Assembly: GCA_016199525.1 (NCBI GenBank)
Contig: JACQGL010000262.1
Location: forward strand, 1-43,676
Length of the DNA: 43,676 nt
Direction: 5' to 3'
Source: Armatimonadota bacterium
Lineage (GTDB): Bacteria; Armatimonadota; SYMT01; JACQGL01
The notes under the pieces were generated by a model that was not told the DNA's origin, ran no database searches, and saw only the letters and a program-made list of their open reading frames with translations. This document shows positions 8,088 through 39,605 of this stretch, one piece after another (the first letter of the stretch is position 1; each line of letters begins with the position of its first letter). Both the position numbers and the translations under genes were made by a program.

Positions 8088-9713
8088 TCAATCGGTCTTA
8101 CCCGGCGGAGACGCTGCTTGCGGCAGCCCCGAAAGCTTTCGGGGCTGCCGCCCACGCCACAGGCACCATGCCGCCATGGTGAGTGCGGAAAGATAGCCGG
8201 GCCAGTCCCCCAGCCGGACATAGAGTGTCCGGTCCTCCCGCAGCGGCAGCGTCGCCACGCGGAAATCCTGCTGAAAGAGAGGAATTTCGGCCACACGCCG
8301 TCCGTAGGGATCGATAAGGTCGGAGATGCCCGCATTGGCGGCGCGAACCACGCTGCGGCGCGTCTCCACGGCTCGCAAAGGCGCCATCGCCTCGTGCTGG
8401 AGCGCGGCGTTCCGACGGTCCCGCCAGCTATCGCTGGTAAGTAGCGCCAGCAGGTTGGCGCCGTTGCGAACCTGCTCTCTGGTGATCCGGCCAAAAGCGG
8501 ACTCGAAGCAAATGGCCACGCCTACCTGCAGATCGCCGTCGCGCACGGGGCGGAATGCGCGTCCCGGCGTCATATCTCGCCGCGGAGCGCCCAGAATGGC
8601 GGCGGAGGGCCACAACCAGCGTAGAGGTAAGTACTCGCCCATTGGGACGAGGAATACCTTATCGTAGCGATCTACGATCCGCCCCCGGGCGTCCAGGAGA
8701 AAGGCGGAGTTGGTCAGGCCCCGCGTGGGAGATCTGTCGAAGCTGCCGGTCAGGATGCGCGCGTGATACTGTTGCGCCATTCCGGCCAGCTCCTGCTGCA
8801 GGGTGGGGCTGGCGAGCAGGTCGTCCCACGTCGCCGCTTCTCCCCAGACGATCAGCTGCGCGCGCGCGCTGCCCGCGCCGCGGGTAAGCGGGTAGTAGCC
8901 CTCCGGGGCCGATTGTACGTCAACATACGGCTGGTCGGACGGATAGGAGATGCTCCCCTGGACGACACCCACCCGCAGCACGGGGGAGGGAGGGAGCGGG
9001 GTGGTGAGCAGCCAGAGCCCCCGCCCGAGTGACAGGGCAACCGCTGCGCCCGCCGCGGCCAGTCGCCAGAGTCTGCGGGACCCACTCCCCGGCGGCTTTA
9101 CCAGCGCCTCCGCCAGGGAAGCGGCCAGCCAGGCCATCAGAAACGATAGTCCGCAGCTGCCTGTGAGATCGAGCAGTTGCAGCGCCACGGGGCAGCGATG
9201 CTGACTGACGGCGAGGTCCCCCCAGGTGAATCCCAGCGGGCCGAGGGAACGGCCCCACTCCGCCGCCGTCCAGGTGGCCGCGAGCGCGAGGGATCGCCAG
9301 CCGGGGGGAACCGTGATGGCCAGCCTGCGCCCCAGGCCCACCGCCAGCCCGATCCAGGCGCCGCTGATCAGTGCCGCGGCGACCCATCCAGGTGCGGAGA
9401 AGCGCGCCATCCACGTAAGATGGAGCAGGAAGAACAGGAAGCCGGCGAGCAGACCCCACAGGCCCGGCCTTTGCCAGGGCCCCAGGGCGAGGAGGAACAG
9501 CGGCACGGGTGCGAGCCAGCCCAACCAGCCCTGATCGAAGGGCGGAAATGCCAGGAGCAGCCATCCCGCTCCGACCAGCGCCAGCATCAGCGGCGACCAC
9601 ACACTTCGGAGCGTGACCGCAGGTGACTCACTGCCACGGCTGCCAGCAGCGGCAGGGGAGGGCTGCTTCCCGGCAAGGGACGGGTTCTTATCCACGCCAG
9701 CGTCTCGGTGCAA
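8088..9713 (-). CDS. lnt: Apolipoprotein N-acyltransferase
   Basis: Transfers a third acyl chain to the N-terminal Cys of lipoproteins in the inner membrane. The 541-residue protein has an N-terminal block of six to seven transmembrane helices (about 41-235) and a C-terminal nitrilase-fold domain (about 245-500). The catalytic triad is visible: Glu292 (LIVWGEAA), Lys352 (YDKVFLVPMGEYLP) and Cys402 (VAICFES). A last helix near 505-520 ends the family domain. The final 21 residues (after CLWRG) are encoded largely by a palindromic repeat at 8121-8150 and look like an added tail. The start (TTG at 9713) is uncertain; the first 37 residues are not conserved and a GTG at about residue 38 is possible. 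It fits with the several lipobox proteins nearby. Confidence 0.93.
   Translation of the reverse strand: MHRDAGVDKNPSLAGKQPSPAAAGSRGSESPAVTLRSVWSPLMLALVGAGWLLLAFPPFDQGWLGWLAPVPLFLLALGPWQRPGLWGLLAGFLFFLLHLTWMARFSAPGWVAAALISGAWIGLAVGLGRRLAITVPPGWRSLALAATWTAAEWGRSLGPLGFTWGDLAVSQHRCPVALQLLDLTGSCGLSFLMAWLAASLAEALVKPPGSGSRRLWRLAAAGAAVALSLGRGLWLLTTPLPPSPVLRVGVVQGSISYPSDQPYVDVQSAPEGYYPLTRGAGSARAQLIVWGEAATWDDLLASPTLQQELAGMAQQYHARILTGSFDRSPTRGLTNSAFLLDARGRIVDRYDKVFLVPMGEYLPLRWLWPSAAILGAPRRDMTPGRAFRPVRDGDLQVGVAICFESAFGRITREQVRNGANLLALLTSDSWRDRRNAALQHEAMAPLRAVETRRSVVRAANAGISDLIDPYGRRVAEIPLFQQDFRVATLPLREDRTLYVRLGDWPGYLSALTMAAWCLWRGRQPRKLSGLPQAASPPGKTD
8121..8150. repeat. Palindrome family copy 1, inside the lnt 3' end
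   Basis: A perfect 30-bp inverted repeat: arm CGGCAGCCCCGAAAG followed by its exact reverse complement. The core CCCCGAAAGCTTTCGGGG is shared by copies at 9896, 10551, 17659 and 25633. It encodes QPRKLSGLPQ near the Lnt C-terminus. Confidence 0.85.
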
Positions 9714-9857
9714 CGCGCTCGTCGAAGGGTACCGGAGCCGTCAGGTCCTGCATCAGGCTGCGAGCGCGACTGGGGGCCCCTCCACCCGGATCAGCACCGG
9801 GCCGAGGTCCGTTATATCCCAAACGGCCCTGGAGAACGGAGCGTTTCCTTCCTGCCT

Positions 9858-9913
9858 GCCCCGATAGCTATCGGGGCCTGCGGCGCGCGGCCCGATCCCG
9901 AAAGCTTTCGGGA
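9858..9913. repeat. Palindrome family copies 2 and 3 between lnt and the VWA gene
   Basis: Two palindromes lie 18 bp apart in the gap: GCCCCGATAGCTATCGGGGC at 9858-9877 and TCCCGAAAGCTTTCGGGA at 9896-9913. The second is 5 bp past the VWA stop codon. They could fold as tandem hairpins and end or stabilise the VWA transcript, but there is no U-tract. The sequence identity to copies inside genes argues for a mobile repeat rather than a dedicated terminator. Confidence 0.8.
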
Positions 9914-9918
9914 CTGGA

Positions 9919-12900
9919 TCACTCGTCCTGCCCACGGGCGCGGCGCTTGGCGCGCAGAAGCCGGGAGGTGTGGTCCTCCGGCTCTGTTGCGCTCGCGTCG
10001 GCCGCAGGCACGGCATCGGGCCGGGCGCCGGTCCCGATGAAATCGGGATCGGATGGCCCGGCGGCAGCGGGAACGCCCGGCACGGACTTGCTCCAGGCCA
10101 CGGCCGGCCGCGACGGCTTGGGTGTCGGCGCGAGGGACGGCTCTGCCGCCTGCGTTCCCGCCGCAGGAGGTGATGCCGCTTCGTCTCCCCTCGCTGCGGG
10201 GGGCGGGGCAGCCGCCCCCGCGGGTTCGGCGATCCGTCCCGGTCCCGACCCCGTCGCCACTCGCTGCCGCGCCTGTTCCTTTGCCCGGCGCAGTCGGACC
10301 AGCGGCTCCGGGGATGGCTGTTCCATCCCCGCTCGTGGGGACCGGAGAATGCCCGTACGGCGGAGAAGCGCGAGCAGCCCCGCCCACAGCCAGCCCCACA
10401 CTTCGCGCGGGGAGACCATCACCCGCCGCACGGCGATATCTGCCAGCAGCAGCCACGCCGTCACCAGCACCAGCAGCGGCCAGAGATCGACCGGGGCCGC
10501 GTGCGTGGGCCGGTCATGGCGGAACAGGATCCTGCCCCACTCCCCTCCTTGTCCCGAAAGCTTTCGGGACGGGCGCGGGTACCCGGAGGAGGGATCAGGG
10601 GTGAGGCCCGGGTGCAGGCGCCCGCCCGTTCGCTCGGCCAGCCCGGTGAGCACCGGCTCGTTCGCCTGCAGGCTGGCATACTCCGGCGAATAGGGCACCG
10701 ACGCCCCCACCGTGTAGAGCCGCTGTCCGACCTTCGGGTCCTGGTAGCTCAGGCTGATGATGTACTGTCCGGTGTCGGGGGCGTCGAAAGTTCCCTCGTA
10801 GCGGCCGGGAGCGGTCTGCTCCAGCCGCAAGTCGAGCGAGCGTCGCTCCGAGGCCACACCGCCGCGGATATCGAGGAAGTTCAGGAAGTTGCCCTGCTCG
10901 TCCAGGGCATCGATCACCACCCGCCCGCGGCGCTCCGAGATCTCCACCGAGGTCTCGAAGCTGGCGCGCGCGGTGCTGCGGATCGTCCAGCGCACCACCT
11001 GCGCCCAGAACTGGTTGAATCTGCCGCCCCATCGGACCAGCCAGGGAGCGGCCCACTTGTTCGTCGCGTCGGAGGTAAACGCCACCGCCTTGCCGAGTCC
11101 GAACCGCCAGGTGGCGAGGACCGGGTCGTTCTTGTGCGAAGCGATCACGATCTCGACGCCGGGCGCCTGCTTGGCGGTGGTGGCCACGTAGCCGCGCAGT
11201 GGGGGCGGCACGCCCAGCCCCTTCAGGAGGGGCGCATCCATCTGCGCCTGGGGCTGAAACACCTCCTCGATGATCGCGGGCTTCAGAACCCGCTGTGCCT
11301 CCTTCAGGAAGATGCGGGGGATCTCTTCTGCTTGCTGTACCTGGTAGAAGCGCCCCCCGGTGGCCCTGGCCATCTGCTGCATCGCTCGTACGCCGTTGCT
11401 GTCGTGCGGAAAGACGGCCACTGTGCTGATGGAGATCTTCGCCCGCGTGATCTCCTGAAGCAGGCGAGAGGTGGGTGATTGCGGATCACCATCCGAGATG
11501 ACAATGATGTGCTTGACCCGAGCATCCGTTTTCCGCAATCCATCGTAGGCCATAGACATGATGCGGTGGAAGTCCGGCATATCTAACGGGTTCAGCTGGA
11601 AGATGCGGGTTTTGAGGAAGTCTTTATCGCGGGCGGGCTGCATCGGCAGTCCCCACTCCTCCGGCGGGCTATAGAGCAGCACCCCGATCTTGTCCTCCTC
11701 GCCCAGGACGTCCACCACGGCGGCGGCGGTTTCGCGTGCCCAGCGAGTGCCATCCGGGAACTCGCACGTGTGTAGCACCAGCGCCACGGCGCCGGAGGGC
11801 ATCACCCGTTCCTTCCGGATCTCCATGTTCACGGGTAACGCCTCTTCCACGGGCGTGCCTCGCCATGCCCCTGGGCCGAAGCTCTGCTCGCCCCCCACCA
11901 TAATCAGCCCTGCCCCCAGGTCGCGCACGTTGCTGCGGATCATCTTCATCTGGTCGGGGGTGAGCTGATCCGCCCCCACGTTGCAGAGGATGAGGCTGTC
12001 GTACGTCTGAAAATCCGCCAGGCTGGCCGGCAGCTGCCCCGGCGCCCGTACGTCCACCTCGATCTGCTGCGTGCGCAAAGCAGCGGCCAGAAACCGCGCA
12101 TCCTCGGGATCGGCACTCACGAGCAGCACGCGCGGGCGGCCACGGACCAGCGTGAGCGCCAGCGCGCGGTTGTTATCCGGTAGCTGGTCCGGCTGCGCCT
12201 CGACCACCGCCTCAAAGGTGTGTGGTCGGCTGCGAGTGAGCGTCTGTGGGAAGCGGATCAAGTTCTTCCCGGGACGCAGCGCCACGGGGCGACTCTCCAC
12301 CAGCTGGCGGTCGCGGAAGAAGCGGAGGGTCGCCTGACCCGCGTAGGTAGAGTTCACAATGGCGCGCACCTCAAACGGCTCGCCGACCTTCGCCTCTGCG
12401 GGGGCAAGAAGCTTCTCCAGGAGCACCTCGTGCTGGTAGTGGTAGCGGATGGGGACCACATCTACCTGGATGCCCGCCGCATTCGCCCCCAGCGCTTCCT
12501 GGAGCGCGGACCCAAGGTTCTCGTTCCCGTCCGTCAGCAGAACGATGCGCTTCTGGGCGTCATCCGGAAAGGCGGCCATCGCCAGACGGAGGGCGCCCGC
12601 AATATCGGTGTAGTCGCGCGCCGGCAGGCTGTGGATCCGATCCAAACGCAGCGCGGCGCTCGGCTCCACCTCCAGGTAAGCGTCCGATCCAAAGACAAGG
12701 ACGCCGGCGCGGTCATTGGGCCCCATGCGTGCTGCGGCCTCGTTGACGAAGTCCAGCTCCCGCTGGTGATGGTCGTCGGGAATGCTGTGGGAGCGGTCCA
12801 GGAGGAAGAGGACGGCCAGCCGCTTCGTTGGCCGGGTGATCTGGGTTCCCGCCAGCGCGAAGACCAGGGCGGCCACCAGGGCGCACCGCAGGCCAAGGGC

Positions 12901-13023
12901 CAGGCGCGCGCGGCCGGCGGGCAGCCCTGCCAGGCTGCGCTGGCTGACCCACCAGAGGCCTGGCAGTAGCAGTAAGAGTATCAGGTAGGCGAGGTGTGTG
13001 AAGCTGACCTGCGGCAGCAGCAT
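9919..13023 (-). CDS. Large membrane-anchored VWA-domain protein
   Basis: A 1034-residue inner-membrane protein of the batA/BatB-like or CoxE-unrelated bacterial VWA type. N-terminal helices span about 10-30 and 45-62. A first VWA domain begins at LAVLFLLDRSHSIPD with an intact MIDAS start DRSHS (Asp76). Next come a beta-sandwich part (about 190-290), a glutamine-amidotransferase-like fold without an evident catalytic Cys (RVLLVSADPEDARF to GGEQSFGPGAW), and a second VWA domain starting GAVALVLHTCEFPDG whose DxSxS is absent. A C-terminal helix (DLWPLLVLVTAWLLLADIA) is followed by a 150-residue Ala/Pro-rich tail. The ATG at 13023 has AGGTGG at suitable distance. Two palindromic repeats (10032, 10551) are inserted in the tail and in the linker before the last helix. 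Function unknown; likely protein-protein assembly at the envelope. Confidence 0.85.
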   Translation of the reverse strand: MLLPQVSFTHLAYLILLLLLPGLWWVSQRSLAGLPAGRARLALGLRCALVAALVFALAGTQITRPTKRLAVLFLLDRSHSIPDDHHQRELDFVNEAAARMGPNDRAGVLVFGSDAYLEVEPSAALRLDRIHSLPARDYTDIAGALRLAMAAFPDDAQKRIVLLTDGNENLGSALQEALGANAAGIQVDVVPIRYHYQHEVLLEKLLAPAEAKVGEPFEVRAIVNSTYAGQATLRFFRDRQLVESRPVALRPGKNLIRFPQTLTRSRPHTFEAVVEAQPDQLPDNNRALALTLVRGRPRVLLVSADPEDARFLAAALRTQQIEVDVRAPGQLPASLADFQTYDSLILCNVGADQLTPDQMKMIRSNVRDLGAGLIMVGGEQSFGPGAWRGTPVEEALPVNMEIRKERVMPSGAVALVLHTCEFPDGTRWARETAAAVVDVLGEEDKIGVLLYSPPEEWGLPMQPARDKDFLKTRIFQLNPLDMPDFHRIMSMAYDGLRKTDARVKHIIVISDGDPQSPTSRLLQEITRAKISISTVAVFPHDSNGVRAMQQMARATGGRFYQVQQAEEIPRIFLKEAQRVLKPAIIEEVFQPQAQMDAPLLKGLGVPPPLRGYVATTAKQAPGVEIVIASHKNDPVLATWRFGLGKAVAFTSDATNKWAAPWLVRWGGRFNQFWAQVVRWTIRSTARASFETSVEISERRGRVVIDALDEQGNFLNFLDIRGGVASERRSLDLRLEQTAPGRYEGTFDAPDTGQYIISLSYQDPKVGQRLYTVGASVPYSPEYASLQANEPVLTGLAERTGGRLHPGLTPDPSSGYPRPSRKLSGQGGEWGRILFRHDRPTHAAPVDLWPLLVLVTAWLLLADIAVRRVMVSPREVWGWLWAGLLALLRRTGILRSPRAGMEQPSPEPLVRLRRAKEQARQRVATGSGPGRIAEPAGAAAPPPAARGDEAASPPAAGTQAAEPSLAPTPKPSRPAVAWSKSVPGVPAAAGPSDPDFIGTGARPDAVPAADASATEPEDHTSRLLRAKRRARGQDE
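10032..10048. repeat. Palindrome family copy 4, in the VWA protein tail
   Basis: TCCCGATGAAATCGGGA, a 7-bp inverted repeat around GAA. It encodes PDFIGT in the low-complexity C-terminal tail of the VWA protein. Confidence 0.75.
10551..10570. repeat. Palindrome family copy 5, in the VWA protein linker
   Basis: GTCCCGAAAGCTTTCGGGAC, a perfect 20-bp palindrome, identical to the copy at 17659-17678. It encodes SRKLSGQ in a linker just before the last transmembrane helix of the VWA protein, without breaking the frame. Confidence 0.85.
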
Positions 13024-13221
13024 CTTAATTCCCACCTGGAAGCGGATAAGACCACGGAGACGCTGAGACCCAGAGCAGAGAGGAAGAGACCATTCAAGGT
13101 ATGGATTGCTGATGAAGCAGTTCGGCTGTTTACAACCGCCTATCTCTATGCCGCTCTCTGTCTCGTCTGATCTCCGCGTCTCTGTGACTCTACGATGAGG
13201 CCTTGGCGTGCTTGATTACGG

Positions 13222-14193
13222 CTACGGTGGCGGGAGCGGCGCAAACTTCTGGATACGGTAATTCTGTGTATCCGCCACAAGCACGTTCCCCGTCGGGTCC
13301 ACGCCGACCCCCCACGGCTGGTCAAACTCTCCCGGCGCCCGGCCCGGCCGGCCCCATGAGGTAAGAAACTGCCCCTCCCGCGTGAACACCGAGATACGGC
13401 TGTTTCCGTAGTCGGCCACGTAGACTCGCCCATATCGGTCGAGGGCCACGTCGTAGGGATAAGTGAGCTGGCCGCGCGCGTGCCCGCGTGTGCCCCACAC
13501 GGTCAGCAGCACGCCGTCCGGCCCGAACACCTGGATGCGGTGGTTCACCGCATCGGCCACATAAACGCGCCCTTGCCGATCCACGGCGAGGCCCTGCGGC
13601 CGCGAGAACTCCCCGGGCGCGCTACCGCGCCGGCCGACGGTTAACAGAGACCTGCCGCGCGGGTCGAGCTTCTGGAGCCGATCCTGCCGCCCGCCATATT
13701 CGCACGTCCAGAGGTTGCCCTGAGGATCGAGCGCCACGCCCGTGACGGCGGCAAACTCGCCGAGGCCGCGCCCCGGGCGGCCGATACGCCGCACCTCGCG
13801 CCCGTCTGGCTCGTAAACGATGATCTGGCCGTTGTGCGTATCCGCCAGCCAGAGTCGCCCGTCCGGCGCCACGCACAGGTGGCGCGGATTGCTTACTGTG
13901 CTTGGAATCCGGGGTGGAATTGGCGTCTGCCAGCCGCGCCGGTAGCGGCCGGAAGCGTCGAACACCTGCACGCGATGGGTACGGTCCAGCACATACAGTT
14001 CGCGGCCATCAGGTGAGCAGGCGATGGCCCGTGGCATCCGCAGCCGCCCCGGGTGCTCGCCGGGCTCTCCGAAAATGAGCGTCGGGGATCGGTAATCTGC
14101 CAGGCCGGCGCCGCAGCCGGCAAATCCCCAGGCCGCCAGCGCGACCCACGCCAGCCGTCCGAGGCCTGTCCACCATGTGCGCCGGAAGTGCAC
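13222..14193 (-). CDS. NHL-repeat beta-propeller lipoprotein
   Basis: A 323-residue exported protein. The signal peptide ends in a lipobox (WGFAGC, Cys27), so it should be lipid-anchored in the envelope. The rest is six NHL-type blades, each with a pattern such as PRGLAVDRQGRVYVADAVNHRIQVF, giving a six-bladed beta-propeller: blades start near residues 52, 104, 150, 195, 242 and 290. NHL propellers bind proteins, RNA or small ligands; there are no catalytic residues visible. The GTG start lies about 30 nt after the predicted transcription start of the promoter at 14227-14279. Gene order beside the VWA protein gives no clear pathway. Confidence 0.88.
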   Translation of the reverse strand: MHFRRTWWTGLGRLAWVALAAWGFAGCGAGLADYRSPTLIFGEPGEHPGRLRMPRAIACSPDGRELYVLDRTHRVQVFDASGRYRRGWQTPIPPRIPSTVSNPRHLCVAPDGRLWLADTHNGQIIVYEPDGREVRRIGRPGRGLGEFAAVTGVALDPQGNLWTCEYGGRQDRLQKLDPRGRSLLTVGRRGSAPGEFSRPQGLAVDRQGRVYVADAVNHRIQVFGPDGVLLTVWGTRGHARGQLTYPYDVALDRYGRVYVADYGNSRISVFTREGQFLTSWGRPGRAPGEFDQPWGVGVDPTGNVLVADTQNYRIQKFAPLPPP

Positions 14194-14226
14194 GCGCCGT
14201 CCCGGAGTAGTCCCCTCGTGTCTTCT

Positions 14227-14279
14227 GCCTCACTGTAGCAGAGCGGACCGGGGGCGTCAACGCGGCAGACGAGGAGGGA
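14227..14279 (-). promoter_or_regulatory. Duplicated sigma70 promoter, copy A (for the NHL lipoprotein)
   Basis: On the minus strand TTGACG (14255-14260) and TACAGT (14232-14237) are separated by exactly 17 bp, a near-consensus sigma70 promoter. The predicted start point is near 14224, some 30 nt before the lipoprotein start. The whole 53-bp block recurs at 15062-15114 with a single mismatch (14247 against 15082). Confidence 0.8.
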
Positions 14280-14296
14280 AAAGTCGGGCCTGGCCA

Positions 14297-14713
14297 TCAG
14301 GGCTGGGGCCCTGTCTGGCTCCAGGCGGGGGCCTCTGGCGGTGTCTCTTCACCCCCCGTGTAGAGCGCGTCGGCGGCGGGCGATTCCCTCACGGAGCCGG
14401 GCAAGGTTGGCGAGCTGGTCGCCGGTGGCAGACTCACCTGACTGGCTTGCTCCTCCCACTGATCCAGCAGCGGCTTCCACCCTGCCGCCCGCGCGATCTC
14501 GTGCATCCGCTCGCGAATCCAGGGGGCATCGGCGCTCAGGTCTCGCTCCTCGAAGAGGCGTAGCAGCACCTGGGGGACGTGGTCAAAAGCGTAGGCAATG
14601 GAGTGGCAGCGCGCGGCATCGCCTTCGGCGGCCCAGTAACGAATCTCCATCAGGGCGAATTGGAGGAGTTTCAGGTAATACCGGATGCGCTCGTCCACTG
14701 GTTCAGGCTTCAT
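14297..14713 (-). CDS. Hypothetical protein, 138 aa
   Basis: A soluble protein of unknown function. The first 90 residues (MKPEPVDERIRYYLKLLQFALMEI...) look wholly helical and could form a small helical bundle; the last 45 are Ser/Pro-rich and probably disordered. The helical part resembles in outline a bundle of about 85 residues seen in immunity or adaptor-type small proteins, but no family is recognised. The ATG at 14713 is preferred to GTG at 14722, since AGGGTG is then about 6 bp upstream. It starts 35 bp after the frameshifted gene at 14749-15047 and should share its promoter at 15062-15114. It stops just before promoter copy A. Confidence 0.65.
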   Translation of the reverse strand: MKPEPVDERIRYYLKLLQFALMEIRYWAAEGDAARCHSIAYAFDHVPQVLLRLFEERDLSADAPWIRERMHEIARAAGWKPLLDQWEEQASQVSLPPATSSPTLPGSVRESPAADALYTGGEETPPEAPAWSQTGPQP

Positions 14714-14748
14714 AGGATGCACCCTGTGTCATTGGTCTGCGGCCCCGT

Positions 14749-15047: not shown

Positions 15048-15061
15048 GCCAGTCGCCTCCC

Positions 15062-15114
15062 GCCTCACTGTAGCAGAGCGGGCCGGGGGCGTCAACGCGG
15101 CAGACGAGGAGGGA
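15062..15114 (-). promoter_or_regulatory. Duplicated sigma70 promoter, copy B
   Basis: Same 53-bp block as 14227-14279. TTGACG at 15090-15095, 17-bp spacer, TACAGT at 15067-15072 on the minus strand. The start point near 15060 falls right at the GGAGG site of the GTG at 15047, giving a leader of about 12 nt. Confidence 0.8.
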
Positions 15115-15261
15115 GGTTCGCGGGAAATCGTACGAGCCGAGCGCCGGTCGGTGTGTCACCAGATGGGCCGCCTCAAGAGTGTGCCGATGCACATCGCTGC
15201 CTCATCCGGTCGGGCAAGAGGGGGGTGAATGCGAGGCGTGAACAACGCTGAACGGGTCCTA

Positions 15262-15279
15262 TCCCGAACGCTTTCGGGA
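15262..15279. repeat. Palindrome family copy 6
   Basis: TCCCGAACGCTTTCGGGA, one base off a perfect palindrome, in the gap between 15115 and 15355. It is a diverged copy of the TCCCGAAAGCTTTCGGGA core. Confidence 0.75.
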
Positions 15280-15303
15280 CCCAAACAGAGACGCGCCAGA
15301 AAC

Positions 15304-15330: not shown

Positions 15331-15355
15331 GCTCCCGAGCGCCTTTTTCCATCCG

Positions 15356-16435: not shown

Positions 16436-16508
16436 CCTTCCCCTCCTTGTCCACGCGATGCAGATCTTATAACCATTGGACGCCGCCCGACCCGGCTTTG
16501 TCGCCGGA

Positions 16509-17546: not shown

Positions 17547-18671
17547 CTACCGATTGATTCGCGGGACGAAGCCGGTTTCCTGCGCTACCCGCTCTTTGCT
17601 GCGCGCGGCGCCCGGCGCCGCACCGCTACAATCGCCAGTCCCGCTGCCATCGGGACCAGTCCCGAAAGCTTTCGGGACCACGCCCGCCCGGGTGGATGGC
17701 GACCCCATGGTGCCGCCGATCGGGCCGGGCGATTCTGGCTGGGATAGCGCCGGGCTGCGCTTGGGAACGCCGTGCACGTCTCCAGGGGACGCCAGCGCCT
17801 CGACCACAGGCCGGCCCTGGCAGCCGGAGGGTAGCGGGAGACCAAGCGCGAACAGCACCGTCGCCGCGGTATCGCACGTGCTGATCTCCACCCGGAGATC
17901 GGTGTGCGGACGGGCCGCCCCACCGGCGGCGATCCAGGGGATGAGTTGGTCGACGGCACGGGCCGATCCGTGCCCGCGGCCGTGGCCCCCGTGGTCCGAG
18001 GTGATCAGGAACAGGGTGCGCTCCCAGTCGCCGGCAGATCGGATGGCGGCAGTGAGCCGCCCTACGGCGGCATCGCAGTCGGCCAGGGCGCGCATCTGGG
18101 CAGCGCTCATCCAGCCCCAGAAGTGGCCGGCGGAGTCCGGATCGGGGAAATGGACGAACAGCAACTGCGGCCGATAGCGCCGGTAGTAGGCTGTCGCTGC
18201 TGCGCCAATCTCACGGGCCGAGACGCCGGGAATGCTGAACCGAGTCAGCGTATCTTTGGCAACCAGATGACGAAACTTCGTTTTGCCTGCGAACAGGGCG
18301 ACCCGCAGCCCCGCCTCCCGCGCCACGCTGAAGATCGTGGGCACGGACAACGTTCCCCGGCGCGGCTTGTAGTCGTTCCAAGTGATACCGTGGCCCGCGG
18401 GCAGCAACCCGGTCACCATGCTGGCGTGGTTTGGCAGGGTGACGCTGGGGAGTACGGCGTGCGCCGTCCATGAGTGGGCACCGCTTTCCCACAACTGGCG
18501 CATCACGGGCACGCGGGCGCGCTGCAGAGCATCCGGCCGGGCGCCATCCAGACTCACGATCACCACCCGCTCGGCGGGTGCGCCGAACGCGGCCGGGGCC
18601 AGCACGCCGAGCAGCGCGAGGAGGAACCACCGTCCCACCGTCCGGCGGAGAGGAGCAAACCAGGGGAGCAC
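17547..18671 (-). CDS. Secreted NPP-like phosphodiesterase/pyrophosphatase (alkaline phosphatase superfamily)
   Basis: A 374-residue exported enzyme of the ectonucleotide pyrophosphatase/phosphodiesterase type. A signal peptide (about 1-32, ending LLGVLAPAAFGAPA) precedes the metal site. Visible motifs are VVIVSLDGARPDAL (first metal Asp), SVTLPNHASMVTGLLP (nucleophile Thr just before LPNH), PDPDSAGHFWG (Asp and His of the second metal), and ITSDHGGHG. The family domain ends near GRPVVEALASPGD; the last 75 residues are a low-complexity tail carrying palindromes at 17639-17678 in frame. The GTG at 18671 with AGGAAAGG upstream is preferred to a start at 18728. Substrate is probably a nucleotide or a phosphodiester headgroup; this is inference. 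Confidence 0.85.
   Translation of the reverse strand: MLPWFAPLRRTVGRWFLLALLGVLAPAAFGAPAERVVIVSLDGARPDALQRARVPVMRQLWESGAHSWTAHAVLPSVTLPNHASMVTGLLPAGHGITWNDYKPRRGTLSVPTIFSVAREAGLRVALFAGKTKFRHLVAKDTLTRFSIPGVSAREIGAAATAYYRRYRPQLLFVHFPDPDSAGHFWGWMSAAQMRALADCDAAVGRLTAAIRSAGDWERTLFLITSDHGGHGRGHGSARAVDQLIPWIAAGGAARPHTDLRVEISTCDTAATVLFALGLPLPSGCQGRPVVEALASPGDVHGVPKRSPALSQPESPGPIGGTMGSPSTRAGVVPKAFGTGPDGSGTGDCSGAAPGAARSKERVAQETGFVPRINR
17639..17678. repeat. Palindrome family copy 7 and a diverged neighbour, in the phosphodiesterase tail
   Basis: GTCCCGAAAGCTTTCGGGAC at 17659-17678 is a perfect 20-bp palindrome. Just beside it, at 17639-17655, TCCCGCTGCCATCGGGA is a diverged copy with TCCCG and CGGGA arms. 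Both lie in the C-terminal low-complexity tail and preserve the frame (VVPKAFGTGP, DGSGTG). Confidence 0.8.
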
Positions 18672-25464: not shown

Positions 25465-26211
25465 GTGCGGCGGTCGCTTGAAGAACTGTACGCGGAGATA
25501 CAACGGCTCTCCTGGGAGGAGAAGCAAGAGCTGGCGGCACGCCTCCGGCAGGATCTGGCACATCCTGACGGCCCAACCGCCAGCGTAGGGGAAGGCTTCT
25601 CATCCCAGAAGTCCCCTGCGCGGGAGGATGCTCCCCGAAAGCTTCCGGGGGCAGTTGCAAGGCGGGGTGCGCAGGCCCCGGCGCTGCCCGCGCGGCGGTC
25701 CCGTGCGGTGGCGGAGCCGCCCCGCAACGGCTCGGCCGGCGGGGGCGTGCCGCTGCTGATCGACGGCTGCAACCTCCTGGGGATCGTGCCCGACTTGAGC
25801 CTTGGCTCGCGCGCTGACTACGAGCGACTGGTATTCCTGCTCCAGGATTATGCCCAGCAGCATCCCCGCCTGCATATCTTCCTGTTTCTGGATGGGAGGC
25901 GGGTGCGCCGCTATCAGCAGGGCGCCGTGCAGGTGCGCTACGTGGCGGGACGCCCCGCAGACGATTCGCTGATCGCGCTCCTCGGCGAACTCCCCGAGGC
26001 GCAGCGGCGCCGCGCCCGCGTGGTGACCGCGGATAAGGACCTGACCCGCCGGGCACGGGCGCTGGGTGCGCGTGTGGAGGTGCCCCTGGCATTCTACCGG
26101 CGCATCGCCCGACCTGAGCCAGAGGCCGACCAGCGGGACAGACCCCTTACCCCAGATGAGGTGCGGGCGTGGGAGGCCTACTTTCGCCTGCCGCCGGACG
26201 AGAGGAAGTGA
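25465..26211 (+). CDS. YacP-like NYN-domain predicted nuclease
   Basis: A 248-residue protein with an N-terminal helical segment (about 1-30, SLEELYAEIQRLSWEEKQEL), a long Ala/Pro/Arg-rich linker, and a PIN-like NYN domain (about 95-225). The domain has the metal-binding DGCNLLG (Asp-x-Cys/x-Asn), then ADDSLIAL and VVTADKDLTRRA, the acidic set seen in YacP/Rae1 proteins. Rae1 of Bacillus subtilis cleaves mRNA in the ribosome A site. A palindromic repeat at 25633-25650 lies within the linker. The GTG at 25465 has GGAG about 8 bp upstream. Role is probably RNA cleavage, but the extra N-terminal segment is not typical of YacP, which is about 170 residues. Confidence 0.82.
   Translation: MRRSLEELYAEIQRLSWEEKQELAARLRQDLAHPDGPTASVGEGFSSQKSPAREDAPRKLPGAVARRGAQAPALPARRSRAVAEPPRNGSAGGGVPLLIDGCNLLGIVPDLSLGSRADYERLVFLLQDYAQQHPRLHIFLFLDGRRVRRYQQGAVQVRYVAGRPADDSLIALLGELPEAQRRRARVVTADKDLTRRARALGARVEVPLAFYRRIARPEPEADQRDRPLTPDEVRAWEAYFRLPPDERK
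25633..25650. repeat. Palindrome family copy 8, in the NYN protein linker
   Basis: CCCCGAAAGCTTCCGGGG, with one mismatch to a perfect palindrome. It encodes PRKLPG in a linker, like RKLSG in the lnt and VWA copies. Confidence 0.7.
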
Positions 26212-33214: not shown

Positions 33215-33354
33215 GTTCAGAGCTACTCCGGAACTGCAACCGCTAGCGGTTGGTGCTATTGTGCAGCCTGTGGCGCAACCCGCGCAGCCGGAAGGGCGGC
33301 CTCGTGACCTCGATGTGGCTTCTCGCCCACCTGCTGGCAGATTGTTAGACGTCA

Positions 33355-33663
33355 TTAAGACTCGGAGCGGCGGATGCGCGCCTCCGTACTTGTCTCCACT
33401 CCGGCAGTGAAGCGATCCCGTTCCAGCTCGGCCAGGCGCTGCTCGATCTGCTCTATGCGCGTGTCGTAGTGCAGGACGGTATCGATCAGATCCTTCTTCT
33501 GACGCTCGTTCTGCTCCAGCAGCTGCTGGAAGCGCGTTTCCAGGTCGCGCGTGGCCGATCGCCGCCGCGCCACGTTCCAGATCGCCCAGATGCCGAACCA
33601 GACGGTGGCGAAGAAGCACAGGGAGACGATCGTGAGGAGCTCAAAGATGGAGTTCGCCAGCAC
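33355..33663 (-). CDS. Small TM + coiled-coil protein, paralogue A
   Basis: A 102-residue protein: one transmembrane helix (about 8-30, LLTIVSLCFFATVWFGIWAI) and a charged coiled coil (about 35-82, RDLETRFQQLLEQNERQKKDL...HYDTRIEQIEQRLAEL), ending in a basic tail. Its sequence is closely similar to the protein at 33954-34253 (HYDTRxEQIExRLAELERxRF in both), so this is a tandem gene pair. The GTG at 33663 has GGAGGGGAAGG upstream, and a hydrophilic upstream extension to 33804 is not favoured. No known family identified. Such small single-TM coiled-coil proteins may scaffold membrane complexes; this is speculation. Confidence 0.72.
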   Translation of the reverse strand: MLANSIFELLTIVSLCFFATVWFGIWAIWNVARRRSATRDLETRFQQLLEQNERQKKDLIDTVLHYDTRIEQIEQRLAELERDRFTAGVETSTEARIRRSES

Positions 33664-33953
33664 TACCTTCCCCTCCGCGGTCTGCCCGAACCAACATGCT
33701 TTCGTCCTTGCAGGCCGCTCTTTCCTGCGTGCCGGGGTGAGGCGGAAGCGCCCCGCACGCTTTCGGAACCCCCGGGAGCGTCCCCGTTCCTGTCGGCTAC
33801 CCATTGAGTAGCATCAACTGCCTGGCGGCAGTTGTACCAGGCGCCGCGGAGCGCGGTGCTACGGCCCGCAGCGCGCTGGAAGATGCCTTCCTATGGGTGA
33901 AACGGGGACTCAGGAATGAAAGAATGCGAGGTGGAATGGCAACGGAGGCCGGG

Positions 33954-34253
33954 TTACGGCCCGCGCCGGATTACCTGCCCCGGAGAGCCTGTCTCGGTTC
34001 CGGCGGCGAAGCGGGCCCGCTCCAGTTCGGCGAGACGGCGCTCGATCTGTTCCATACGGGTGTCGTAATGGAGGATCGTATCAATCAACTCCTTCTTGTG
34101 CTGTTCATGCTGCTCTAGAAGTTCCTGGATGCGCGCGTCTACGCGCTGGTGCGCGGATCGCTGCCGCGACCCGATGAACACCGCCCAGACCGCAAACCAT
34201 ACCGTGCCAAAGAAGCCAAGCACAGCAACCAATCCGATAAGTTCCCCCAGCAT
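33954..34253 (-). CDS. Small TM + coiled-coil protein, paralogue B
   Basis: A 99-residue protein with one transmembrane helix (about 4-27, ELIGLVAVLGFFGTVWFAVWAVF) and a coiled coil (about 32-78, HQRVDARIQELLEQHEQHKKEL...HYDTRMEQIERRLAEL). It is the paralogue of the protein at 33355-33663, 290 bp downstream. GAGGAGGAG lies about 3-11 bp before the ATG at 34253, so it is preferred over an in-frame ATG at 34298. Both copies keep the helix, the coiled coil and the HYDTR motif, while their termini differ, suggesting selection on the middle. Confidence 0.72.
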   Translation of the reverse strand: MLGELIGLVAVLGFFGTVWFAVWAVFIGSRQRSAHQRVDARIQELLEQHEQHKKELIDTILHYDTRMEQIERRLAELERARFAAGTETGSPGQVIRRGP

Positions 34254-34811
34254 GTGCTCCTCCTCAGTCCGGCCTGCACGCAGCATGAGTGCTTTCACCG
34301 CGAAAGCGGCGGCGTTCCTGCGCGGCGCAGGCGAGTACTATACTTCACATCCGTCACGAATATCGGGCGCTTGCTCGCTGATGCTCCCAATGCTCTCTGA
34401 AAGGGTAATTACTTTGTTGCTAACCGACCGTCACCGACTGAGGCAATGTTTTCCACGCGGCTTGCGGATGGACCAGAGTTGTCCGCACATGGAATCTGCG
34501 CCGGACATTGGGAGCGCGTCAACGGTGCCGGACATGCATTTCTCACACAAGCCTACGGTGGGCGCCGTTAGCGAGAGCAGCGGCGCACCTCAACGCCTAT
34601 CGGGTTCCACCGGCCTGCTTACCCTCGCCGTGGCGGTAGGTCCCATTGAGGGTGTTGCACAGCGGCACCGTGAGCGCAGCTGAAAAAAGCCGTCAGTGTT
34701 CCCGGAGATCAGTGATTGCCAAACATAATGCTGGACAGATTCTCCTTCGCAGTGATAGCATTCCTATTGAGCATTGAGTTCACCCCCCTCAAAACGGAGG
34801 CATCGAAGAGC
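34254..34811. other. Gap before the basic winged-helix-like gene
   Basis: About 558 bp. No supported gene. Near 34757-34775 CATTGAGCATTGAGTTC is a pair of heptamer-like units of the kind seen at 30394. The region before 34812 contains CGGAGG about 12 bp upstream of the ATG. Confidence 0.5.
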
Positions 34812-35405
34812 ATGAGCGAAGCACGATCCGTCGCAACCGCCGAACTGAGCATCCACCTCCGCCTGGATTCACTGGAGCAATTGGCGCGCGTGCTGGAGGC
34901 TTTGCGCGAAGCGCCCGTGGTTACTGCCGTCACCGCCCCACCGGTGGAAGTCACCGAGCCGACCCCCGCTCCCGCCGCTCCTGCCGCTCCCAGGCGGCGC
35001 GGGAGGCGCCCGAGAGCTGCCGCCGCGCCTGTGGCAACCGCGCCTACAGCCGAGGCTGCCGCCCCGCGTCGCCGTGGGCGTCGGGCGATCGTCCCACCCG
35101 CGGGTGGGGCCGTGGATCTCCCTCGACTCCTGGGCAGCGCTCCTCTGCTCCAGCAGAAGCTGGTGCAGTTTCTCGCCGAGTATCCGGGGCAGCGCTTCAC
35201 CACGGACGAGCTATTGGATCCTATGGGGGTTACGAGCCGCAAGATGCTGGGCGGTCGTCTCACCGGGTTCAAGAAGACGCTGGGCCAGCAAGGAATCGGG
35301 TTGGTCAAGCAGCGCTGGTTGGGGAAGGAGTACGAGTATTGGATGGAGCCGGAGGATGCGGAGAAAGTACGCCGCTACTTCGCGGAGCACCCGCTCCCCG
35401 CGTGA
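34812..35405 (+). CDS. Basic protein with AT-hook-like motifs and a C-terminal helical domain
   Basis: A 197-residue protein. The N-terminal 35 residues form a helical segment (ELSIHLRLDSLEQLARVLEAL). A Pro/Ala-rich linker follows, carrying two basic motifs PRRRGRRPRA (60-69) and PRRRGRR (85-91), shaped like AT-hooks. Residues about 105-195 form a compact mixed helix/strand domain (LLQQKLVQFLAEYPGQRFTTDELLD...GVTSRKMLGGRLTGF) that resembles a winged helix: helix, helix with TSRKMLGGRL as possible recognition helix, then a strand-wing (LVKQRWLGKEYEYWMEP). Together this suggests a DNA-binding, perhaps nucleoid-associated protein; it is inference. CGGAGG lies about 12 bp before the ATG. No family named with confidence. 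Confidence 0.65.
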   Translation: MSEARSVATAELSIHLRLDSLEQLARVLEALREAPVVTAVTAPPVEVTEPTPAPAAPAAPRRRGRRPRAAAAPVATAPTAEAAAPRRRGRRAIVPPAGGAVDLPRLLGSAPLLQQKLVQFLAEYPGQRFTTDELLDPMGVTSRKMLGGRLTGFKKTLGQQGIGLVKQRWLGKEYEYWMEPEDAEKVRRYFAEHPLPA

Positions 35406-35548
35406 CTGCTGTCTCTGCGCGCCTCGCCGTCCGTCGCGAAACCAGGAACAGCGCCGGACGGCGAGTTCTCTGTACGGAGCAGGAGGCGCACACGCTCACG
35501 GCGTAGCTCACGGTGGCCGCGCCCCAGCGGCAGAAAAGGAGGCGCACC

Positions 35549-36922
35549 ATGTCCGGCGTAGGACCGCCACGGCTGGCCGCGCTGCGCGATGAATTCACAC
35601 GCGTAGAGCGAATCCTGGCGGAAACGCCCACGGTGGACAAGTTCTTTGGCATTCCCAAAGAGGAGTTCCAGACACGTCAGCGCCGCGTGGCTGATGCTCT
35701 CCGCGCCCGGGGACTGGACGTCGGCTTTGTCTTCTCCGACGAGCACTACAACGGTGACGTTCCGTACCTGGGCGGCAATACCAATGTTACCGTCGAGCAG
35801 GTGGCCGGCGTCATCGGCCCGGACGGCTTCCACATCGTGGCGGGTCTGGAGGGGGGCTATGTCGCCGAGCAGCTCGCGCCACGTGCGGGCGCCCGCGTGC
35901 ACAAGGTGGAGCTGCTCCAGCTCGCCGATGAGAAATACCCGATTGATGCCGAGCGATTGGAAGACGTAATTGCCGCGGCGGCGGGCGGGCGTCGGGTGGA
36001 TCGCATTGGCCTCCTCACTCCCCGCCAGGTGATCCCTGACGGCGTCGTCGGCTACCTGGAGAACCTCTTTGGCGCCGAAAACGTGATTGATGCCCAGGAG
36101 ATCTACTACCGGATCAAGTACGAGAAGTCCGATAACGAGATGCGCCTGATCCGCGATGCGAACGTGATTGCGGATGCGATGCTGCGTGCCATGCTGGCCG
36201 TGCTCAAACCGGGAATGCTGGAAACGCAGCTGGCCGCCTGGGCCTACTTTGTCGGGCGCGAGCTGGGTGCGGAAGGGATGGGCTGGGACGTTATCGTCGG
36301 CGCGAATACCGCCAACCGCACTCTCATCGGCAAGGCCCTCAACCGTCCTATCCAGCACGGAGACTGGGTCCACCTGGGGGTTGCTCCGCAGCGGGACGGC
36401 CTCAACGCCTGCGTCCGCCGTTCGGTCATTGCCGTCGAGTGTCCCGAGGACGTGACGTCCGACCAGCGCTACTGGTTCCGACTCGTGGAGGAGGCCTACC
36501 AGGTTGGCCTGGACGCCTACCGCCAGGTGGCCGAACACCACTTACCCGCCCGCCTCCAGGAGCAGGCGCTGGTTGATTTCTTCCGCAGCAAATCGGCGGA
36601 AGTATCGGCGCGGATCGGCAAGCCGGTCCAGCTGGAGCGCCTGAAGCCCTACACGGGCACACACAACGCCGGCTACACCGAATGTCAGGAGTTCTTCGGA
36701 GCAATCACCCTGGAGAGCGACGAACCGCTCGGCCAGCAGATCGTCACTATGCTGGACGTAGCCCTGCGCGGCATCGGTAACTACTGGGACGATGTGATCC
36801 TTCCCGAAGTGGACTTCGTGGTGGTGGAGAACACCCTGGGCAAGTTCGGGACGCGCGTGGAAGAGTTCAATCGCGTGCCGCGAAACGCACAGGCGCTCGT
36901 GGGCACGGGCCTTTATCCCTGA
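35549..36922 (+). CDS. M24 (Xaa-Pro aminopeptidase/creatinase-like) fold protein, metal site altered
   Basis: A 457-residue protein of the M24 fold with an N-terminal creatinase-like domain (about 40-175, FQTRQRRVADALRARGLDVGFVF) and a pita-bread domain (about 185-450, IKYEKSDNEMRLIRDANVIADAML). Real M24 peptidases have two Asp ligands in D-x-G-x-x-x-x-Y-x-x-D-x-T-R; here the equivalent HLGVAPQRDGLNACVRRSV (275-293) has neither. The later His (GTHNAGY) and a Glu-type position remain partly. It may be an inactive or altered member rather than a peptidase. AAGGAGG 6 bp before the ATG fixes the start at 35549. It is convergent with the glycosidase gene at 36955. Confidence 0.8.
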   Translation: MSGVGPPRLAALRDEFTRVERILAETPTVDKFFGIPKEEFQTRQRRVADALRARGLDVGFVFSDEHYNGDVPYLGGNTNVTVEQVAGVIGPDGFHIVAGLEGGYVAEQLAPRAGARVHKVELLQLADEKYPIDAERLEDVIAAAAGGRRVDRIGLLTPRQVIPDGVVGYLENLFGAENVIDAQEIYYRIKYEKSDNEMRLIRDANVIADAMLRAMLAVLKPGMLETQLAAWAYFVGRELGAEGMGWDVIVGANTANRTLIGKALNRPIQHGDWVHLGVAPQRDGLNACVRRSVIAVECPEDVTSDQRYWFRLVEEAYQVGLDAYRQVAEHHLPARLQEQALVDFFRSKSAEVSARIGKPVQLERLKPYTGTHNAGYTECQEFFGAITLESDEPLGQQIVTMLDVALRGIGNYWDDVILPEVDFVVVENTLGKFGTRVEEFNRVPRNAQALVGTGLYP

Positions 36923-36945
36923 GTAGCCTGGCGAAGCGGGACCAG

Positions 36946-36966
36946 GAGCGGACGCTACGTCCGCTC
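36946..36966. terminator. Bidirectional hairpin between convergent genes
   Basis: Arms GAGCGGACG and CGTCCGCTC form a perfect 9-bp stem around CTA. The CTA loop is the reverse complement of the TAG stop codon of the minus-strand gene at 36955. GTTCTCCTT follows on the plus strand. It can serve the plus gene ending at 36922 and the tail of the minus gene. Confidence 0.6.
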
Positions 36967-38010
36967 GTTCTCCTTGGTGGCCATCTTGGGAGAGCGATTC
37001 GGCGTCAGCCGCTGCGCGACGCGCTTGTAGGTGCTGGCGCGGTCGTAGATCACCAGGAGGTTGGTGAGCGGTCGCCGTGGCGCCAGGTGCGTTTTGCCCC
37101 GGTAGTAGAGGCCCGCCGAGTTGCCGCCGTCCAGACACATCGCATCTCGCGCGCCCAGGGCGAGCGCGGCGCGGGCCGCTTCCCGAAGGGTGATCGGCCG
37201 TCGCACGCCGAGCAGGAGCAGCTTGTGGTGCCGCGTGATACCCACCAGCGCGCGCCGCTTCCGCGCCCAGATGCCCGGGTCTCGGAACCCTTCACGGCGC
37301 GGGGAGAGGACGATCCGCCCGCCCGCCACCAGCCGTGGACCCGCACGCAGGACGGTATCGTAGTGGCTCCCGTCGAAGCGCTCCCCCGCGCGAAGCGTCT
37401 TCATCCGCACGCGACCGGGCGCGCGGAAGGCAAGGGCGGTGCCCACCGCGCCGCCATGCACCGGCTTTCCTTGCACCACGATGCTGCCCACCGGCAATGC
37501 GGAGGCCGGGTCGAAGTAGGTTCCCGTGATGGCCGCTGTAGGGCGTGTGCGAGCGATGATCCGACCCCAGGAATCTCGATAGCCGATCCCGCCTCCCGCG
37601 GTGGCCACTGCGAGCCGCAGGTCCGGATTGTTCAGGTCCGCCTGAACCACGTGCAGCGGCAAGCCCCCGGCGATAGCGGCATAGTAGACGACTGCCACCT
37701 CCCGGGAGCGCGGCGGGCGGCGGGCGGGCAGACGTCCATTGAGACGCGTACGGACCCGTCCTGTCCTGCGGTCGCCCGTATGCGCGGCGTGGGGGGAGCG
37801 GCGAACGGGAGGGGGTGCCACCCTGGCCGCCGTCTCCTGCGTGCCGGGATGCCCTTTGGGACCCGTGTTTGGCGGCGCGGCGCGCCTTATGACTCGCGTT
37901 CCGCCTCCCGGCGACACGAATGCGCAGGCCACCCCCAGGACAACCAGGCTCACAAGCGCGGCGCCACCCATCCGCAGTCGCCGCGCGCGGCGATAGTGTC
38001 GGTAAGTCAT
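36955..38010 (-). CDS. Phosphodiester glycosidase (NAGPA-type) domain protein
   Basis: An exported or membrane-anchored protein of the NAGPA phosphodiester glycosidase family, which cleaves N-acetylglucosamine-1-phosphodiester or related bonds. The 351-residue form starting at 38010 (MTYRHYRRARRLRMGGAAL) has an N-terminal TM helix (about 15-33), a Pro/Arg-rich linker (about 38-105) and the glycosidase domain (about 110-345). Visible family motifs are VVYYAAIAGGLPLHVVQADL, ITGTYFDP near 182, AGPRLVAGGRIV near 243 and the catalytic-site CLDGGNSAGLYYRG near 312-325. An upstream in-frame ATG at 38049 is possible. The loop of its stop codon lies in a terminator hairpin. Role likely cell-wall or glycan remodelling in the periplasm. 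Confidence 0.85.
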   Translation of the reverse strand: MTYRHYRRARRLRMGGAALVSLVVLGVACAFVSPGGGTRVIRRAAPPNTGPKGHPGTQETAARVAPPPVRRSPHAAHTGDRRTGRVRTRLNGRLPARRPPRSREVAVVYYAAIAGGLPLHVVQADLNNPDLRLAVATAGGGIGYRDSWGRIIARTRPTAAITGTYFDPASALPVGSIVVQGKPVHGGAVGTALAFRAPGRVRMKTLRAGERFDGSHYDTVLRAGPRLVAGGRIVLSPRREGFRDPGIWARKRRALVGITRHHKLLLLGVRRPITLREAARAALALGARDAMCLDGGNSAGLYYRGKTHLAPRRPLTNLLVIYDRASTYKRVAQRLTPNRSPKMATKENERT

Positions 38011-38702
38011 TGGACCTATCTCGTGTAGCAACATCACGCCGGCCATCACCTACGCCTGGCACCGCCTCCCGCCCGGTCTCCGCCCCGGCAGGAGCCCGAA
38101 AGCGGAAAGCCACGACCGGCAGGCCGTGGCTCAAAGCAACTGGGACGGCGGTCGCCCGGGATCCCGGTCCCAATGAGGTCGGGAGGCCCCCGGGTGTCGC
38201 CAGGTGCTTCATGCCGTACCCGCGGGGTTCGCGAAAAGGGCTTGGGCTTGAAGCTGCCCGACGTAGCGTCCCCGGTACTTCCGCGACGACGCGATTCGCC
38301 CCCCGGGTGGTTCCCCCGCCTCCGCCGTCGCGGAGCTTGGCACTTTCTTACCCAGGAGGGTGGCAATTCAACCGCCCGCTAGGAAACTCTTCCCATCAGC
38401 CAGGCTATCTGGCATCTTTTCAGGGCGTGACTGCCGTATCTCTCCCCTTATGCCAGCAATCGTACGCCCGTTAGAGAATGGGCCGCGTCCCAACGTAGTC
38501 GGGATGCCATCGGTAAGGTAGGAGTCGCCCCCGCTATGGTGACAACGTATCTCCGGCAGCGCAGATCCGGCCAAGGGGATGCGGAAACGTGAGGGAATGA
38601 GAGCCGGGGCGCTCTGATCCCTTCATCCACCCGCACACGCCTCCCTTAAGGCAGGGCAGCCCGACGATGGCGGGCATTCGCGCTTACGGAAGGAAGGCTT
38701 GG
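38011..38702. other. Gene-poor region with two diverged palindrome copies
   Basis: About 690 bp between divergent genes. Two diverged copies of the palindrome family are present: TCCCAATGAGGTCGGGA (38168-38184) and TCCCAACGTAGTCGGGA (38488-38504). A hairpin GCCACG-ACCGGCAGG-CCGTGGC lies near 38110-38131. Open frames on both strands have no start context. A GGAAGG site at about 38692 belongs to the MobA-like gene. I do not see a riboswitch I would name. Confidence 0.5.
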
Positions 38703-39452
38703 ATGGCGGATCCGATACCGGCGATCATGCTCGCCGGCGGGCGGGCATCACCCGAGCTGGCGCGCGCTGGTCACAGCGACTACCGTGCGCTGGCGGCGAT
38801 TCACGGTCAGTCGATGGGGAGTTACGTCCTCCGCGCCCTTCGCGCCACCCCCGGCATCGGCGAGGTGGTCGTTGTGGGGCCGCAGGCCTGCGCCATCCTG
38901 GATGCAGACCGTTTCGTCGCGTCTGATGCGGGCATTGTCGCCAACACCCTGGCGGCGTTCGCCGCGTGCGACTTTCCGGTGGCGCTGGTGGTTACGGCAG
39001 ATATTCCGCTGGTCACCCCTGCGGCATTCACCGACTACCTTGGGGCAGCGATCACCTCGCAGGCGGCCTTCTGCTACTCCGCCATCCCGCGCGCGGTCTA
39101 CGAGCGGCAGCTCCCGCGCATGAAACGCACCTGGGTTCATCTGGCGGATGGGGTCTACACGGGCGGCAATGTGGTGCTGATCCGTCAGGACGCGCTGGCC
39201 GCCGCGCGCCGGGTCCTCACTCTGGCGGTGGAATCCCGCAAGCAGCCGTGGAAGCTCATTTCTCTGCTGGGATGGCGTGCCATCTGGCGATGGTATCGGT
39301 GCCGGCTCACCCTTCGGGAGATCGAGATGCGGGCCGCCCGGCTCCTCGACGCCCCAGCGGCAATCGTCGTCGCGCAGCACGCCGCCCTCGGCGCGGACGT
39401 GGATAAGCCGGAAGACCTGGCCGCCGTGCGCGCCATCCTCTCCCCGCTGTAG
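38703..39452 (+). CDS. MobA-like nucleotidyltransferase
   Basis: A 249-residue nucleotidyltransferase of the GT-A/MobA-like superfamily. It starts MADPIPAIMLAGGRASPELARA with the LAGG phosphate-binding loop, then ADIPLVTPAAFTDYL near 96-110, where MobA proteins have a conserved Asp. Residues about 115-215 are unlike MobA of E. coli, with GVYTGGNVVLIRQDAL near 143 and a helical C-terminus (DVDKPEDLAAVRAIL), a D-x-x-x-P-E-D-L end common to nucleotidyltransferases that recognise sugar phosphates or molybdopterin. Other molybdenum-cofactor genes are not nearby. GGAAGG lies 7 bp before the ATG at 38703. The activated substrate is unknown. Confidence 0.78.
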   Translation: MADPIPAIMLAGGRASPELARAGHSDYRALAAIHGQSMGSYVLRALRATPGIGEVVVVGPQACAILDADRFVASDAGIVANTLAAFAACDFPVALVVTADIPLVTPAAFTDYLGAAITSQAAFCYSAIPRAVYERQLPRMKRTWVHLADGVYTGGNVVLIRQDALAAARRVLTLAVESRKQPWKLISLLGWRAIWRWYRCRLTLREIEMRAARLLDAPAAIVVAQHAALGADVDKPEDLAAVRAILSPL

Positions 39453-39550
39453 ACTGAAGTTTCGCCCCCCTGATCCTCTTGGTACCAACATAGCGTGGCA
39501 GCCGACGGCCCGTGAGCACGGGCCGCGCTGGCCGTCCCGGAGGCGCTCCT

Positions 39551-39605
39551 GAATGCTTTCGGGAAGGGTGTTGCCCGAAGGCGTTTGGGCCCGAAGGTGT
39601 TCGGG
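39551..39605. repeat. Cluster of three diverged palindrome copies
   Basis: GAATGCTTTCGGGA (39551-39564), CCCGAAGGCGTTTGGG (39574-39589) and CCCGAAGGTGTTCGGG (39590-39605) lie in tandem in the leader of the secreted protein gene. They share the arms CCCGAA and TTCGGG and the spacing of the palindrome family, in various states of decay. The block ends 69 bp before the start codon. Confidence 0.65.

Follow-up and report, generated by a model that had tools for sequence, protein, structure and literature searches.

The stretch of DNA analyzed here, referred to as the window, is the 43,676-nucleotide contig JACQGL010000262.1 of an Armatimonadota metagenome bin (label G000; 266 contigs, 3.74 Mb, 66% GC, 88% complete, so that the missing 12% qualifies every gene absence reported below, namely those of Y1 transposase, Ku and reverse transcriptase). 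The window carries copies of a short palindrome with the arms TCCCGA and TCGGGA, which fall into two 16-mer subfamilies (T-type and C-type) and a separate triloop family.

Copies of the palindrome in the window and the genome

All of the copies proposed by a sequence-only reading of the window were present, most of them 0-7 nt from the starts given there, and their placement both between and within genes was confirmed in the window and genome-wide. A C-type core, CCCCGAAAGCTTTCGGGG (8127-8144), lies within a 32-bp perfect palindrome with locus-specific arms (8120..8151) inside the 3' end of the apolipoprotein N-acyltransferase gene (8088-9602, minus strand). Two intergenic copies follow: a 28-nt C-type element with the centre ATAGCTAT and GCCTGC on both sides (9854..9881, core 9859-9876), and a perfect T-type copy, TCCCGAAAGCTTTCGGGA (9896..9913), 6 nt beyond the stop of a VWA/glutamine-amidotransferase-like gene. 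The gene at 9919-13035 (minus strand) contains, both in frame, the triloop-family copy TCCCGAT-GAA-ATCGGGA (10032..10048, plus strand) and a perfect T-type copy that reads SRKLSG (10552..10569). An intergenic T-type copy at 15262..15279 has a single loop change (TCCCGAACGCTTTCGGGA). A decayed copy, TCCCGCTGCCATCGGGA (17639..17655), which is additional to the earlier list, adjoins a perfect T-type copy (17660..17677) that lies in frame (PKAFG) in a phosphodiesterase gene (17547-18671, minus strand). The remaining copies are intergenic and consist of a C-type-like copy with a single stem change (25633..25650), two decayed triloop-family copies, TCCCAATGAGGTCGGGA (38168..38184) and TCCCAAC-GTA-GTCGGGA with a single stem mismatch (38488..38504, plus strand), and a cluster of three decayed copies at 39547..39605 (39547-39564, 39574-39589 and 39590-39605). 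An Rfam search of the window gave no match.

Genome-wide, the exact pattern CCCGAWAGCTWTCGGG was found at 185 sites, compared to 0 for the reversed control and approximately 0.006 expected from base composition, and all forms of TCCCGA-N4-7-TCGGGA (loops of 4 to 7 nt) were found at 317 sites, compared to 0 for the control. The excess over a model of equal base composition, which the sequence-only reading had set as a test, is thus present. Its proposed mixture of perfect and decayed copies was also borne out: in a 380-kb sample, perfect copies numbered 33, those with one mismatch 11 and those with two mismatches 8, compared to 0, 0 and 0.12 for 40 shuffled palindromes, which amounts to a sharp perfect peak with a tail, and beyond two mismatches the counts were at background. 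The core 12-mers were the most over-represented 12-mers of this sample, with observed/expected ratios in the thousands for the strongest. Among 60 relatives, the exact CCCGAWAGCTWTCGGG pattern had a single occurrence, in a genome from the same order.

The anatomy of the copies was determined in approximately 1.15 Mb of the genome, sampled as stretches. Of the 145 copies in this sample whose flanks were complete, 134 split into two groups, T-type (GTCCCGAAAGCTTTCGGGAC; n = 76) and C-type (GCAGGC-CCCGAAAGCTTTCGGG-GCAGGC; n = 58). The triloop family, GTCCCGAY-GNA-RTCGGGAC, has the same stem around a five-base centre; the sample held 61 copies with such a centre, 45 of them with the triloop GCA, GAA or GTA, and 107 GNA triloop copies were found genome-wide, compared to 0 for the control. 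The earlier description of one palindrome with varied centres therefore holds for the stem common to all forms, (G)TCCCGA/TCGGGA(C), and for the differing tips, but the centres are not random and define separate families. Some triloop copies have an extra ATCGGG 3' of the stem (TCGGGATCGGGA; L191:17123, L214:8218, L197:5816, L212:2744, L183:9994 and L192:11284), possibly as a longer subfamily or a slippage product.

The stem-loop as the conserved unit

The conserved unit is the stem-loop. Of 149 copies, 138 have a Watson-Crick outermost pair (permutation mean 74, maximum 96), a position that played no part in finding the copies and that alternates between T-A and C-G. At the sixth position of the triloop stem, 53 of 61 copies are paired (permutation mean 25, maximum 38), with alternation between C-G and T-A. 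The copies are kin by descent, which means that these permutations overstate the significance; the T/C split in particular may reflect two source copies. In decayed copies, half of all mismatches fall at one loop position and are uncompensated. The GNA strand has no orientation bias relative to genes (8 same and 13 opposite inside genes, 9 and 4 in tandem spacers), which argues against a function at the transcript level. Taken with the stem covariation and the freely varying loops, this indicates that the stem-loop more likely acts as DNA than as RNA. GNA loops closed by G-C pairs form extraordinarily stable DNA mini-hairpins (PMC4686876); the DNA parameters of ViennaRNA did not distinguish GNA from its complement, so the preference for DNA rests on this literature.

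Larger locus-specific hairpins around the copies were also considered and rejected: flank complementarity was not above that of shuffled pairs, and 8-bp arm extensions were present in 2 of 141 copies.

Insertions at filled and empty sites

Where an empty counterpart exists, the copy proves to be a genuine insertion, and most of these insertions overwrite 3-18 nt of the target. The IS5-type transposase gene at L031:1-870 (contig 27 of the bin) contains three elements in less than 900 bp, a much higher density than in the genome on average, and was compared with intact plasmid homologues (approximately 74-78% identity) and with paralogues in the genome. In the first event, DSRTLRSTPESG of the homologues was changed to DSRTLQSRKLSG, with replacement of a 12-nt block and a length change of 0. 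In the second, the six bases before CCGCCCTGG were replaced with a net gain of 11 nt that breaks the frame, and this event is common to a second, 96%-identical insertion sequence (IS) copy. In the third, a C-type copy was inserted with a net gain of 22 nt and has GCCTGCCC on both sides. In L151, a diverged paralogue, a separate copy lies a few codons from this position (net +6 nt) and thus represents an independent event. In protein alignments with same-order genomes, an FGGY kinase contains two copies of +2 aa (+6 nt) each and a CsaB-like pyruvyl transferase contains one of +4 aa (+12 nt); homologues from the PDB were too distant for placing insertions, and relatives and IS homologues served better.

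The same hairpin occurs in other phyla. The 18-mer TCCCGAAAGCTTTCGGGA was found in at least 112 stretches of other bacteria; among the matches listed these are mostly Bacteroidota, with Nitrospirota, Verrucomicrobiota and Cloacimonadota also represented, and they include isolates such as Leeuwenhoekiella palythoae and Flavobacterium palustre. In those genomes TCCCGA-N6-TCGGGA is in excess (for example 177, 58, 58 and 39 sites, compared to 0-2 for the reversed inverted repeat). The exact 18-mer was not found in viral contigs, nor the core string in the literature searched. At three Bacteroidota loci the element lies inside a duplicated tRNA gene beside the intact copy (L120:7068; L085:1967 and 2376; L128 at approximately 180-230). 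The tRNA-Trp duplicate (L120) has 9 nt replaced by 18 nt, the tRNA-Asn duplicate (L085) has 5 nt replaced by 18 nt, and the tRNA-Met duplicate (L128) contains two elements, where 18 nt stand in place of 3 nt at one and of 5 nt at the other, so that the net gain is +9 to +15 nt. T-type copies showed no target-site duplication, as there was no excess of flanking direct repeats. The sequence-only reading had suggested ongoing spread and decay; the mismatch tail, the lineage-restricted expansion and the insertions relative to empty homologues support dispersal with decay.

Two further loci contain the palindrome. A tRNA-like gene in a tRNA cluster (L041:1572-1657), which may be a real tRNA or an inactivated copy, has an anticodon arm that consists exactly of the palindrome, giving an 8-nt loop (ARAGORN anticodon agct). 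In Leeuwenhoekiella palythoae (L095:5126 and 5611), a longer dispersed repeat (GTCACTTCGAGCGCA...GAGAAGC) carries the palindrome in two instances, embedded each time at an identical position.

Possible routes of dispersal and comparison with known repeats

The reading that we favor, with confidence a little better than even, is that these are micro-hairpin elements that multiplied in this lineage by replacement-type insertion through a folded single strand. In this reading each element is a DNA stem-loop of 17-28 nt, in which the stem is constant and the tip interchangeable (an AGCT-type tetraloop or a GNA triloop). Copies are several-fold rarer in genes than in spacers, and those in genes keep the frame. 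A new copy would arise when the folded single strand serves as a template or is joined in as a patch at a short gap open in the target, probably at a replication fork or in a repair gap. The enzyme could belong to the replication or repair machinery of the host, or be a transposase that the bin lacks. The dispersal, the stem constraint and the replacement are observed, while copying via a folded strand, the mobilizing step, is what we infer from them. Several points weigh against this reading. The first L031 event, which has no length change, would by itself be compatible with substitution; the kinase and CsaB-like length changes rest on homologues that are 40-54% identical; and the C-type, which has GCAGGC on both sides and one resolved insertion resembling a GCCTGCCC duplication, may use another route. 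The comparison set contained no same-species genome, so present-day mobility is a presumption. No mobilizing enzyme was found, and searches of the bin for Ku and reverse transcriptase were also negative.

The genome offers hundreds of copies, clear subfamilies, filled/empty pairs in which the replacement junctions can be read, and a GNA loop rule suggestive of an intermediate made of folded DNA. A broader proposal, put forward only tentatively and rated as rather unlikely, is that (G)TCCCGA-loop-TCGGGA(C) mini-hairpins are copied, with overwriting of 3-18 nt of target, by one unrecognized mechanism common to distant phyla (this phylum, Bacteroidota, Nitrospirota and others). If this broader proposal is true, no smaller replicating mobile DNA than these hairpins of 17-20 nt would be known, and host replication or repair activity would take the place of a transposase. 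Activity of one stem in several phyla would also make it possible to search for a shared enzyme or a process associated with the fork.

The first alternative is that the copies are repetitive extragenic palindrome (REP)/REPIN-type elements mobilized by a RAYT (Y1 tyrosine transposase), the gene for which either falls outside the recovered 88% of the genome or has recently been lost. Short perfect or imperfect palindromes in hundreds of copies, mostly in spacers and recognized as single-strand hairpins, would fit this model, and Y1_Tnp genes are present in most of the other-phylum genomes that share the stem. However, the search for a RAYT-like transposase called for by the sequence-only reading (PF01797) gave no match in the bin, where the positive controls worked and absence is not proven, and Y1_Tnp was also not found in two further genomes (G002 and G074). 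With 12% of the genome missing, the RAYT model stays open, although we consider it unlikely. REPs are not known to replace target sequence. The defining features of GTAG REPs are a GTAG end, a RAYT and doublets (PMC3116915, PMC3733652). Like them, the present copies are repetitive, mostly extragenic palindromes that form a single-strand hairpin, but GTAG or CTAC is near only 1 of 42 triloop and 2 of 76 T-type copies, and most copies are singletons: among 167 sites, a spacing of at most 200 nt was found 10 times, compared to 4.8 expected, which is a slight excess with little pairing into doublets. The earlier comparison with REP/BIME-like elements is thus retained as an analogy only.

In terms of known repeats, the nearest kind appears, by analogy, to be the small dispersed repeats (SDRs) of cyanobacteria, alongside the transposase-less CGTC REPs. 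The SDRs of Nostoc are reportedly hairpins of approximately 20-27 nt with compensatory changes and are thought to be mobile (Elhai et al. 2008, Genome Res 18:1484). The present hairpins resemble those of Nostoc and its relatives in size (about 20-27 nt), compensatory changes, hundreds of copies, nesting in other repeats and the lack of a known enzyme. In contrast, the SDRs, compared here by description, are other sequences from another phylum, and the GNA-loop rule and the overwriting of varied targets of 3-18 nt belong to the present hairpins. SDRs are cited in PMC4390886 and PMC2884548, and in the former SDR5 is described as inserting precisely between nucleotides 3 and 4 of HIP1. CGTC REPs, defined by a CGTC tag and tail, have an 8-9-bp stem with a 4-5-nt loop, occur in several phyla with intragenic copies, and have no known dedicated transposase; how they multiply without one is described as an open question (PMC3733652). 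The present hairpins have an 8-bp stem and a 3- or 4-nt loop, but differ in that the CGTC tag and CCA-type tail were found in 1 and 4 of 42 triloop copies, respectively, and the first stem pairs are not A-T. Rickettsia palindromic elements likewise interrupt conserved genes without loss of frame and are also present in RNA genes, but they measure 105-146 bp (PMC2229807) compared to 17-28 nt here. Target overwriting, the GNA-loop rule and the recurrence of one stem in distant phyla look new.

A second alternative is that the palindromes are selected binding or methylation sites, HIP1-like or for nucleoid organization or segregation, which are kept or made as duplex palindromes by point mutation for a protein. 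HIP1 of cyanobacteria is likewise a perfect, highly over-represented palindrome that is also present inside genes (PMC4390886), but it is 8 bp long and tied to methylases. Here, by contrast, copies arrive as insertions: gain by substitution would not change the length, whereas gains of 6, 11 and 22 nt (IS genes) and of 9 to 15 nt (tRNA duplicates) were found. The asymmetric loop changes, with no symmetric partner change, and the block insertions are unexplained by this model, and the same stem with different centres, the oriented GNA loop and the lineage specificity also argue against it; we regard it as improbable.

A role as RNA-level hairpins, either intrinsic terminators or mRNA-stability elements, would agree with the stable hairpin and the mostly intergenic placement. 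The densities per kb in genes and in spacers were 0.042 and 0.115-0.175 for T-type, 0.009 and 0.17-0.23 for C-type, and 0.030 and 0.03-0.13 for triloop copies, all approximate, as the genes were called with a simple in-house coding model. However, approximately 45% of T-type and triloop copies are inside genes, triloop and C-type copies have no strand bias relative to transcription, and the lack of a T-tract on either side and of a consistent spacer-type preference indicates that the copies are not terminators; this role is very improbable. Avoidance of convergent spacers, suggested by a first sample, failed in a larger one, and the argument was dropped. The T-type core has no stop in any of the three frames, and the copies in genes, which read SRKLSG, PKAFG or PESFR, alter the proteins in frame, supplying small peptide insertions. 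In one long, Gly/Pro-rich reading frame (L018:15098-17428), the low-complexity linker carries three elements, each in frame.

An assembly or library artefact of the fragmented bin, to which a fold-back around a copy at the end of contig C45 and several copies at contig ends could point, is the least probable explanation, given the coherent subfamilies with decay, the in-frame copies inside single continuous homologous genes and the same 18-mer in isolate genomes. The fold-back itself (L150), an inverted repeat centred on the palindrome, is probably such an artefact at a hairpin.

Within the phylum of the window, the GNA-loop stem is patchy: G190, G081, G110, G014, G009, G186 and G169 have 6-18 copies each, and most others have none. 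The first five of these, from other genera, contain their own small CCCGAY-GNA-RTCGGG expansions, with a different preferred loop in each. Unrelated to the palindromes, the window also carries a 58-nt direct repeat (14222-14279 and 15057-15114; 95% identity, 835 nt apart).

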